The translations under genes and the position numbers were made by a program. A stretch of DNA of 64,000 bases, from the NCBI RefSeq assembly GCF_000018285.1, contig NC_009901.1, forward strand, positions 3,905,001-3,969,000, read 5' to 3'. The notes beneath the pieces are model-generated. The model did not search any database, was not told the origin of the DNA, and saw only the letters and a program-made list of their open reading frames with translations. This DNA comes from Shewanella pealeana ATCC 700345. Lineage in GTDB: Bacteria; Pseudomonadota; Gammaproteobacteria; Enterobacterales; Shewanellaceae. This document shows, piece by piece, positions 41,456 through 44,471 of this stretch (position 1 is the stretch's first letter; each line of letters starts with the position of its first letter).

Positions 41456-43456
41456 TTAACGGATCGCTGAAACCAAGTAATCAATTACCGCTGTTTCAGG
41501 CGTTGACTTGTGCTTTAGCTCAAATAACGGAACCGGCTTTTCAAGCATGTTACGTTCAACCATTTCGCTAATGATCGACAAATCCAAAATGCCAGCTTTA
41601 CCGACTAACAAATTATCTAGCGGCGTGGTTTTACTTAAGTTAACGATATCTCTAAAGCCCTTTAAGTAAAGGAAATCTTTAGTGAAACCGCCACCACGAT
41701 AAACACGCGTGGTTAACGTAAACGCTTGCTCGGTTGTTTGACCATATTCACGCATTAGCGTTTGGAAGGTCATCGAGAAATCACGCTGCTCTAACATCAA
41801 GTTTACTGCAATTACGCGCAGCGCTAAGATCTTAAGGCGATTAAGAGTTAGGTTACCTGAACAGTATTCACTGTAAATCGCCACACCTTCTTGAGTATGG
41901 GTGTTACCCACAAGCCCTAGTGACAGCACTCTTAACTTTTGGCGACGCGCGTTAACCGTAGTCAACATATGCACGCCCAACTCATGGTTAGCAAACGCGA
42001 TAAGTTCTTTAGCAGTGAACATCGCATCTTTGTTGATCAACAAACAGTTTCTTTCGCTGTCGACCATGGCTTTAGCCACAATACGCGATGACTTTTCGAC
42101 CTTACATTTAAGGCCCCATTCATCGGCCTGCTTTTGGAATGACTGAACCGCATGGCTTGCATCAAAACTCGGCTCTTCGTCATCACCTATGATATCTGGC
42201 GCACGCAATAAAAACTCTGCGTTAGCAATATCGTCTTTATCTGGCTGACCGTAATATTTAAGCGAGTTATAAACAAAGTCGTCATTGCCGATAGAGCATA
42301 GCAGGTCAATCTTAGTCGCTAAGTTATCAATCACATGGCGATAAAGCTGCTGAATATCGGCATCCATTACGTTTTCAACGGGTAGCTTGTACAGCTGCTC
42401 GCGGAACTGATATGGATTAAGGTTTAGCTGCTTGTAGCTAAACTCTGGTGCCACAGCCCCTTTGCGCGCTAAAAACTTTTTACGCTCACTGGCAATATTA
42501 ATCGGGTTAATATACTTCAGTGTGGCAACGTTGTTAGCCAACTTATATAAGCTTTTATCTAATGATAAAATCTCAGGCGATAACGTCGATGACAATAAGT
42601 CGACATTTCTCACCGATTTACGCTTACCAAAACGGCGCATAAAGAATGCAGCAGTTTCAGATATCGCCTGCTTAATCCCCGCCTTTAGCTCTTCCAAAAC
42701 CAGTGGGTATAACTCACCCGTGGTTTCGTCCATAAACACTTTTTTAACTTCGACAGGTAACACCAAGGTGTTATCGAAATGCGCGTTTACGTGAGCAATT
42801 AAATAGCCGCGACCTTGAAACACTTCATCTGTGGCAGCGCGCACGGCAAGGTTTGGTAGCTCAATCTTATTAAGTTGCTTCTCAAAATGGCCTGGTGTGC
42901 CACCCCAACGTTCGATATCAATCTGGCTGGTGCCAATATTAAACGTCGGCGTATCGGCTTCTATACGCTGATGGTTATACGAGTGCGTATCGAACACGAT
43001 GCAGTTTTTAAACTGCTTCTCTAGACGCGTAATCAAAGCACTCAGTACGTTATAAAACGACTGGTGCTTAGCGTGACTTTCGCTACGCTGTTTAGTGCTT
43101 AATGGCTTTTGCCAGACTTGCTTGTTCCACGCGGTTTTGAAATAGGTTGAATGCGCCTTTGGGCGGTTCAAGTCATATTCAAAACGAGAGTCATTACCTA
43201 TCAAGACAATAGGGAATGACGACAGCATTTCGTCTGTGTACGGGTCTTCTTCATAAAAGCGTTCTTCTTTAGTCAGCAAGAAGGACTTGTTAAGGTCATC
43301 GCGTAAGCGGTGACCATTATGAATAGCAGTACATACAACTGGAGAGTACTCATCAATCTTAACGATGAATGAGCCGCCTTCAACTTCAGCTTGAAAGCAC
43401 TCGCCTTTATTAATTAACGCAATACACTCTTTTTCAGATAATGTGAGCATCGTCAA
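41456..43456 (-). CDS. N-formylglutamate amidohydrolase-like domain fused to a DUF1704 zincin
   Basis: 666 residues, cytosolic (no signal). Residues about 38-280 look like an N-formylglutamate amidohydrolase-type amidase (VCTAIHNGHRLRDDL, NDSRFEYDLNRPK, FDTHSYNHQR). Residues about 300-640 are the DUF1704 zincin with HELGVH at 491-496 and TQEGVAIYSEY at 521-531. DUF1704 includes the eukaryotic tubulin tyrosine carboxypeptidase MATCAP, so carboxypeptidase-like activity is plausible. It overlaps the upstream ATP-grasp gene by 23 bases. The pair suggests that a peptide bond or amide is made by one protein and trimmed by the other; the substrate is unknown. Confidence 0.85.
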   Translation of the reverse strand: MTMLTLSEKECIALINKGECFQAEVEGGSFIVKIDEYSPVVCTAIHNGHRLRDDLNKSFLLTKEERFYEEDPYTDEMLSSFPIVLIGNDSRFEYDLNRPKAHSTYFKTAWNKQVWQKPLSTKQRSESHAKHQSFYNVLSALITRLEKQFKNCIVFDTHSYNHQRIEADTPTFNIGTSQIDIERWGGTPGHFEKQLNKIELPNLAVRAATDEVFQGRGYLIAHVNAHFDNTLVLPVEVKKVFMDETTGELYPLVLEELKAGIKQAISETAAFFMRRFGKRKSVRNVDLLSSTLSPEILSLDKSLYKLANNVATLKYINPINIASERKKFLARKGAVAPEFSYKQLNLNPYQFREQLYKLPVENVMDADIQQLYRHVIDNLATKIDLLCSIGNDDFVYNSLKYYGQPDKDDIANAEFLLRAPDIIGDDEEPSFDASHAVQSFQKQADEWGLKCKVEKSSRIVAKAMVDSERNCLLINKDAMFTAKELIAFANHELGVHMLTTVNARRQKLRVLSLGLVGNTHTQEGVAIYSEYCSGNLTLNRLKILALRVIAVNLMLEQRDFSMTFQTLMREYGQTTEQAFTLTTRVYRGGGFTKDFLYLKGFRDIVNLSKTTPLDNLLVGKAGILDLSIISEMVERNMLEKPVPLFELKHKSTPETAVIDYLVSAIR

Positions 43457-44471
43457 TCGCCTTTCTAAACTCGCTTCTTCTCTGTGTTAATGCTTCTTTG
43501 GCATTGACTACACTTTCAACGAAATCAATGACTTTTTTCTGAAGCTTAACGTTATTAAGCTTATTGATACGCATAATGCCACCCGGGCTTTGTACGTTAA
43601 CTTCAATCAGCTTTTCGTTAATCACGTCGATACCAACAAAGAATAAACCGTCACGCACCAGCTTAGGACCGATATGCTTACACAGCTCTTTTTCTTTCTT
43701 GGTTAAAACGTGCTTAACCACACTGCCACCTGCGTGAATATTAGAGCGCACTTCGCCTTGTGCAGGAATACGCTTCATTGCGCCAATAGGCTCGCCGTTT
43801 AGCATTAAAATACGTACGTCACCTTCTTCGGCGCCCTCGACGTATTCTTGTAAAATAACGTAGTTGCCGCCTTTGCCACTGTTGATGTAAAACTCAAGCA
43901 GTGAGTGGAAGCTCTTTTGTGCTGCCTTTTCAACCAGAATAACGCCTTGACCACCGTAGCCATCAAGCGGCTTCATGATCATCTTATCAGTCTTAGATTC
44001 ACGTAGTACTTCTTCTAAATACTCTGGTGTTTTTGATACGTGAGTAACTGGAATAAACTTATTGCTAGGATCATCAAACGAAGCGGTGTAAAGCTTGTTG
44101 TTAGCAATACGTAGACCATCAATATCGTTCATGATGAATACGTCATCACGCACTGAATCGAGGAAGTTAAGCGCGATAGGATCAAGTGGTGGATTGGCAC
44201 GCATAATAATGCTGTCAAAACCCGCTAGCGGTAAACGCAACTTCTTGAACTCAGCTCTCTTGTAGAAAGACACGATATTAGTCGGCGTAACCTGATCTTT
44301 ATTAAACACCTGGCAAAAAGCACTAGCTTCTGAATCACGCATGGTTAGGTTGCTGGTCGTTGCTAACGCAACCGTATGTCCCCTTGCCACACATTCGTGA
44401 ATTAAACGCAGTGTAGTGTCGGTTTCAGGCTCAACGCTTGACCATGGGTACATCAGAAATAAAATATTCAA
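43434..44471 (-). CDS. GshB-like ATP-grasp ligase
   Basis: 345 residues. Resembles glutathione synthetase along its length: MRANPPLD near residue 90, IMKPLDGYGGQGV at 165-177 (ATP-binding lysine and glycine loop), EEGDVRILMLNGEPIGAMKRIPAQGE at 215-240, NIHAGG at 244-249 and FVGIDVINEKLIEVNVQSPGGI at 278-299 (metal-binding Glu and Asn). True gshB genes are usually about 316 residues and stand next to ruvX/yqgE, which are absent, so this is probably a paralogue joining a different amino compound. First gene of a two-gene operon with the amidase/zincin protein. The start follows aagagag. Confidence 0.88.
   Translation of the reverse strand: MNILFLMYPWSSVEPETDTTLRLIHECVARGHTVALATTSNLTMRDSEASAFCQVFNKDQVTPTNIVSFYKRAEFKKLRLPLAGFDSIIMRANPPLDPIALNFLDSVRDDVFIMNDIDGLRIANNKLYTASFDDPSNKFIPVTHVSKTPEYLEEVLRESKTDKMIMKPLDGYGGQGVILVEKAAQKSFHSLLEFYINSGKGGNYVILQEYVEGAEEGDVRILMLNGEPIGAMKRIPAQGEVRSNIHAGGSVVKHVLTKKEKELCKHIGPKLVRDGLFFVGIDVINEKLIEVNVQSPGGIMRINKLNNVKLQKKVIDFVESVVNAKEALTQRRSEFRKAIDDAHII

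Follow-up and report, generated by a model that had tools for sequence, protein, structure and literature searches.

The window, a 64,000-nucleotide stretch of DNA from Shewanella pealeana ATCC 700345 (contig NC_009901.1, positions 3,905,001 to 3,969,000), carries on its reverse strand two overlapping genes. The first encodes an ATP-grasp ligase resembling glutathione synthetase (GshB), the second a fusion hydrolase in which an N-formylglutamate-amidohydrolase (FGase) domain is joined to a MATCAP zinc-peptidase domain. The open reading frames (ORFs) and profile scores agree with an earlier sequence-only reading of this DNA, which had placed both genes, with these domains and on this strand, where Table 1 lists them. 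Residues of the fusion are numbered from the ATG at 43450, unless the TTG is mentioned. The 23-base overlap given in that reading holds for a fusion translated from the TTG at 43456; from the ATG, two codons further on, 17 nucleotides are shared. Counting from the TTG, the same reading had singled out H491 and E522. The former is indeed the first histidine of the HELGVH motif (H489 from the ATG), but residue 522 is a glutamine; in the QEG motif the metal-ligand glutamate has number 523 (E521 from the ATG), and in the HExxxH motif the glutamate is E492 (E490).

Translation of the ligase and the fusion may be coupled. Four terminator-like sites are present in the scanned region, where 3.3 are expected, and the hairpin in Table 1 has by far the longest stem. 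As it comes after the fusion gene, the transcription unit probably consists of just the ligase and the fusion. Downstream lies a glucose/sorbosone-dehydrogenase-like gene on the same strand, while the PAP2 gene upstream of the ligase is divergent.

Table 1. Features of the ligase and fusion genes (window coordinates)
Feature	Position	Strand	Basis or remark
GshB-like ATP-grasp ligase, 345 amino acids, TTG start, NF009110/PRK12458 subfamily	43434..44471	-	ORFs, profiles
Fusion protein (N-formylglutamate-amidohydrolase domain and MATCAP zinc peptidase)	41456..43450	-	664 amino acids from ATG; 666 if TTG 43456
Reading-frame overlap of ligase and fusion	43434..43450	-	17 nucleotides
SPG motif codons (S295-P296-G297) of ligase	43581..43589	-	alignment A3
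FGase (PF05013) domain, carboxypeptidase (M14)-like fold; H44, E68, H156 conserved	42743..43345	-	
MATCAP (PF08014, TIGR02421 QEGLA) domain	41519..42481	-	
HELGVH, the HExxxH metal motif (H489, E490, H494)	41969..41986	-	alignments A2, human MATCAP
QEG (Q520-E521-G522), third metal ligand	41885..41893	-	aligned with EEG of human MATCAP
Terminator-like hairpin, 15-pair stem, directly 3' of fusion	41430-41395	-	

The ligase and the fusion hydrolase

Loci and genomes used for comparison are numbered with L and G; the 80 named loci among them are the best 80 of 575 and were picked by likeness to the window fusion, so that they are biased towards the fused form. The ligase matches the Pfam families GSH-S_ATP (195.4 bits) and GSH-S_N (79.3 bits) and is a member of NF009110 (PRK12458) with 497.6 bits against a cut-off of 408, a cut-off that some paired homologues miss (319.9 bits in L115 and 392.1 bits in L132). 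Its scores remain below the cut-offs of the glutathione-synthase equivalog TIGR01380 (237.8 versus 299.05 bits) and of the RimK model TIGR00768 (83.9 versus 143.4 bits), and the TTL domain (PF03133) is absent from its eight Pfam matches at E <= 0.1. Canonical GshB is homologous over the whole length (PDB entry 1gsa is matched with an E-value of 2.1e-35) and the genome's own canonical GshB (L002) is 31% identical. A Shewanella halifaxensis protein is 96% identical to the ligase, Shewanella woodyi also holds homologues, and the name in public records is glutathione synthase. In alignment A3, Arg91, Arg220, Arg234, Arg242 and Asn244 are invariant with canonical GshB, residues which we take to bind the peptide substrate in GshB. 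The SPT of canonical GshB is replaced by SPG; RimK proteins have NSSPGL here and the canonical GshB of the same genome NVTSPT. Among 71 paired ligases, 70 have SPG[G/T] or APGG, including two with APG.

Both domains of the fusion score well above their Pfam cut-offs (FGase 65.3 bits versus 28.9, MATCAP 314.2 bits versus 27), and the protein passes TIGR02421 (374.9 versus 338.65 bits). It falls far short of the HutG N-formylglutamate deformylase equivalog TIGR02017 (20.4 versus 278.75 bits), placing its FGase domain in a different subfamily from the N-formylglutamate amidohydrolases (PDB entries 2q7s and 2odf). The AlphaFold2 model has a mean pLDDT of 92.2 and predicts the MATCAP fold; the FGase assignment (PF05013) is supported by profile match and fold together. 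Among solved structures, profile searches returned human MATCAP entries only, and searches with the single sequence of the fusion or of a separate FGase gave no match; the likeness of the FGase domain to a solved structure comes from fold comparison.

In an alignment of 30 fusions (A2), H489, E490, H494 and E521 are invariant (30 of 30). HELGVH aligns with HEIGTH of human MATCAP and QEG with EEG, described as the metal-ligand motif of eukaryotic MATCAP in PMC10499314. A pattern search of the named loci finds HExxxH in 79 and QEG in all 80. In the FGase site, H44 (30/30), E68 (30/30) and H156 (28/30) are conserved; from their motif, we assume these to be the metal ligands. In a genome of the same family, one MATCAP copy is broken and contains a TAG codon in frame (L050, G200:C1:1483790-1484281).

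Conservation and forms of the cassette

A GshB-like gene is located directly upstream of the fusion in 71 of the 80 named loci, and the two frames, judged by the longest-ORF rule, overlap in 67 of these 71. The nine unpaired loci comprise two at contig ends (L107, L109), one with a run of N (L129) and six without a GshB-like gene. In Photobacterium the pair is present in nine of ten named loci, the tenth being the interrupted L129. All 13 of the NF009110 matches above the cut-off, a count from which sub-cut-off ligases are left out, adjoin a MATCAP match on the same strand. Separation of the two genes in most genomes, which would have told against the sequence-only reading, is not seen for the fused form or in the Bacteroidota, but MATCAP as such is often found alone.

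For the Bacteroidota, the phylum to which Empedobacter (G303) belongs, 296 genomes were drawn, 16 of which contain PF08014; all 16 places were analysed. At 15 of them a GshB-like gene belongs to the MATCAP cassette, with three genes intervening in L173. The FGase is fused in L169 and L180, has a gene of its own in 11 loci (L166, L167, L168, L170, L171, L172, L173, L174, L175, L176, L178), and is replaced by an AstE/AspA gene in L179; it was not seen in the Bacteroidota locus L177, nor in the stand-alone L165. Separate FGase genes were assigned by BLAST, and by Pfam as well for L166 and L172; in L178 a shadow ORF hides the MATCAP frame under the longest-ORF rule. In L166 to L168 the parts of the window cassette are three consecutive genes. 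In L170 (5028-10724) and L171 (3478-8378), two GshB-like ligase subtypes surround one FGase and one MATCAP gene; both L170 ligases belong to NF009110, and the two ligases may catalyse two ligation steps.

Since the set stays together in distant bacteria, the cassette is probably a real system. Synteny conservation does play a part in this, as 26 of the 80 named loci include a maoP-like (DUF413) gene. It is upstream and same-stranded in 23 and, at the threshold applied, accompanied by an hdfR-like LysR gene in 14; the gene names maoP and hdfR are our presumption. The hdfR/maoP-like pair, exemplified by L081:3496-4848, overlaps the ligase by one nucleotide in Vibrio (L074); PF04219 has no match in the window genome. 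Shared LysR control of the cassette and this pair is possible. That the ligase and fusion might be chance neighbours, or part of a conserved syntenic block without shared function, is nevertheless scarcely credible: the association is kept in two evenly sampled phyla through fusion, splitting and reversed gene order, and the distance matrices of ligase and fusion correlate (Spearman 0.59, a value reached in 0 of 500 permutations, with shared species history not removed). The fused and split forms in different phyla are strong evidence against it, and we reject chance adjacency.

The neighbourhoods of 25 stand-alone MATCAP loci have no common partner; an alpha/beta hydrolase occurs in one family, and one RimK was seen. 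This table is incomplete, as shadow ORFs hid the MATCAP frame in GC-rich loci and 16 of the 25 showed it. In L137 (6304-7209), a stand-alone MATCAP gene is followed by a same-strand alpha/beta hydrolase gene, and a similar ORF is present in four more loci.

Neighbouring genes, glutathione genes and salinity

In six Bacteroidota loci (L166, L167, L168, L170, L171, L173) a sodium:dicarboxylate symporter gene is located immediately upstream on the same strand, at a distance of 14 to 121 nucleotides. PF00375 confirms the assignment for L166 and L167, the remainder being assigned by BLAST. The nearest NCBIfam model is the glutamate/aspartate symporter GltP, with scores far under its cut-off of 638 (266.6 for L167, 258.4 for L170). 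Identity to the L167 symporter is 65-98% for those of L166, L168, L171 and L173, and these loci may therefore be one lineage. RimB and RimK genes are located near the fusion in L088 and L093, both without a GshB-like gene; in L088 they share one orientation and flank an AstE/AspA gene, in L093 they are divergent. In L042 (2688-5679) and L043 (5765-8777) the cassette is directly followed by an rloABC-like set of retropepsin, inactive transglutaminase-7TM and ATP-grasp genes.

The window genome, a single contig of 5.17 Mb, contains one MATCAP gene, one gshA match (PF04262) and three PF02955 matches: the canonical gshB (NF003573, 492.7 bits), the cassette ligase and a fusion of a RimB-like retropepsin with RimK. 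Glutathione synthesis is thus encoded separately from the cassette, so the ligase is not the sole glutathione synthetase of the cell; that possibility, which would have told against the sequence-only reading, is rejected. Ten further cassette-bearing genomes (G299-G308) were reached via Bacteroidota, Verrucomicrobiales and unclassified loci, one genome being unclassified. In seven of the ten (five metagenome-assembled genomes and two Empedobacter isolates), neither PF04262 nor PF04107 was found, PF08886 having been left out of the test, and nine of the ten have just one PF02955 match. The eukaryote-type glutathione synthetase PF03917 had no match in 18 genomes and none in the controls either, so that this search is uninformative.

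An RNA-seq comparison of Photobacterium damselae at 1% versus 3% NaCl reports that RS17020, 'glutathione synthase GshB', is raised 38.42-fold, RS17025, 'QEGLA', 27.51-fold and RimK 52.24-fold (PMC10308900). By their consecutive locus tags and product names, RS17020 and RS17025 match the ligase and fusion pair, and the cassette may have a role in low-salinity adjustment. The authors treat RS17020 as a glutathione synthetase, which, with the name in the public records, would speak for a redundant glutathione synthetase accompanied by a glutathione-degrading partner. We regard this as very improbable, with canonical gshA and gshB already in the window genome and the cassette present in genomes where neither of the tested gshA families was found. 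Some 'glutathione synthase' annotations, including the one in this salinity study, may instead denote another enzyme.

Proposed function and relation to known systems

The ligase is expected to attach an amino acid through an amide bond to a carboxylate, most probably one belonging to a small peptide of glutamyl type or to an acidic tail. The fusion encoded in overlap with it would undo such bonds via two metal sites: an FGase site of M14 fold, acting on acidic residues of N-acyl or N-terminal type, and a second site, that of MATCAP, taking off C-terminal residues. We give roughly even odds (about 0.5) to the cassette being a reversible acidic-peptide cycle, used for peptide tagging or recycling. 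Such a make-and-trim cycle is the best reading because the ligase and the two hydrolytic sites stay together through fission, fusion and changes of gene order. Acidic amino acids are favoured by the neighbours (RimK/RimB, RloABC, AstE/AspA and the dicarboxylate symporter), by the substrate that gave FGase its name and by the deglutamylase activity of eukaryotic MATCAPs, which trim poly-Glu according to PMC10499314. The amino acid added would be glutamate or another dicarboxylate, with ligation by the first protein and hydrolysis by the second. The earlier proposal that the pair could make, cap and trim a glutamyl-like peptide or tag fits this context as regards making and trimming, while capping has no direct support.

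Several observations weigh against the acidic-peptide cycle. The ligase and hydrolase activities are predicted from sequence, fold and context, as are substrate and product, and the neighbourhood evidence is guilt by association throughout. RimK neighbours are few (five of the 80 named loci, two of them from one genus, where our rough expectation was below one). MATCAP often stands alone, 28 of 39 MATCAP-bearing genomes having no NF009110 match above the cut-off, and six complete named loci have a fusion without a GshB-like gene (L088, L093, L099, L100, L113, L134); L100 is from Shewanella nanhaiensis, a species that also holds a paired copy (L062). Two of the 30 fusions in the alignment, L099 and the still paired L046, lack a histidine of the FGase site, so this site seems dispensable at times. 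Three further points would suit a thiol-peptide pathway, in which the ligase makes a glutathione analogue that differs in its terminal residue, and hydrolysis by the fusion serves to recycle it. The ligase passes the glutathione-synthase cut-off of NF003573 (284.1 versus 272 bits); a rhodanese gene is located inside the cassette in L170 and L173, the former being nearest to 3-mercaptopyruvate sulfurtransferase at a sub-cut-off score (205.2 versus 250); and in G006, G037, G089 and G101, which hold a variant cassette, a GCS2-type gene is present while strong PF02955 matches are confined to the cassettes themselves, so that a glutathione role is possible in these four.

The rhodanese genes and the GshB ancestry, including the five shared presumed substrate residues, keep the thiol-peptide pathway alive, but it is unlikely in view of the RimK-like change from SPT to SPG in nearly all paired ligases, the TIGR01380 score and the seven genomes outside the Pseudomonadota without either gshA family. 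Doubtful to a similar degree is a bacterial parallel to the tubulin tyrosination/glutamylation cycle, in which ligase, M14-fold hydrolase and MATCAP carboxypeptidase from one operon would reversibly attach acidic residues to the C-terminus of a peptide or protein and take them off again, switched on by a drop in salinity. It would show where MATCAP-type chemistry operated outside microtubules. No protein substrate is known, however, FGase relatives work on small molecules, and the ligase has no TTL-family match at the threshold given above. The acidic-peptide cycle is preferred here in its general form, in which the target may be a free peptide or a protein tail.

MATCAP was only recently named as a family of tubulin-tail peptidases, and its bacterial relatives are called 'flavohemoglobin expression-modulating QEGLA motif protein'. 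With one branch connected to an ATP-grasp ligase and to a hydrolase of the N-acyl-glutamate type, the family acquires a chemistry that is concrete and can be tested. An ATP-grasp ligase with a peptidase is a known kind of system, and Iyer et al. in 2009 reportedly noted associations of ATP-grasp peptide ligases with peptidases whose folds are unrelated; the sequence-only reading, too, mentions that similar pairings had been noted. In the CC-licensed PMC literature, no description of the three-activity cassette was found: DUF1704 did not occur together with ATP-grasp and was seen in a malaria-genome context only, QEGLA/COG3930/TIGR02421 appeared only in a transcriptome table, and N-formylglutamate amidohydrolase was not found with ATP-grasp, or with glutathione synthase and salinity.

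Compared with canonical GshB, the ligase has SPG instead of SPT, is longer (345 versus 317 amino acids) and stands in a cassette. The human proteins MATCAP/TMCP1-2 (KIAA0895L, KIAA0895), tubulin detyrosinases/deglutamylases, have the fold, the HExxxH motif and the third glutamate ligand in common with the fusion, but in the cassette MATCAP is joined to an FGase domain and paired with a ligase gene. The rlo operon of Pseudomonas aeruginosa (RloABC) combines an ATP-grasp protein with a polyglutamate-cleaving peptidase and has an osmotic role, according to PMC12239564; unlike the cassette, it has a secreted retropepsin and a membrane protein and no metal hydrolases. In the RimK-RimB system (polyglutamylation of S6 and its retropepsin), an ATP-grasp amino-acid ligase is likewise encoded with a reversing peptidase, whereas in the cassette the ligase is GshB-like and hydrolysis falls to metal enzymes with two different folds. 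In the RimB-RimK fusion of the window genome (L054:3978-5354; G000:C1, about 2543977-2545353), the RimB-like retropepsin and a complete RimK are contained in one chain; the retropepsin domain (PF05618) scores 137 bits against NF052261 (below the cut-off of 200), and the RimK part 388.9 bits against NF007764 (cut-off 331).
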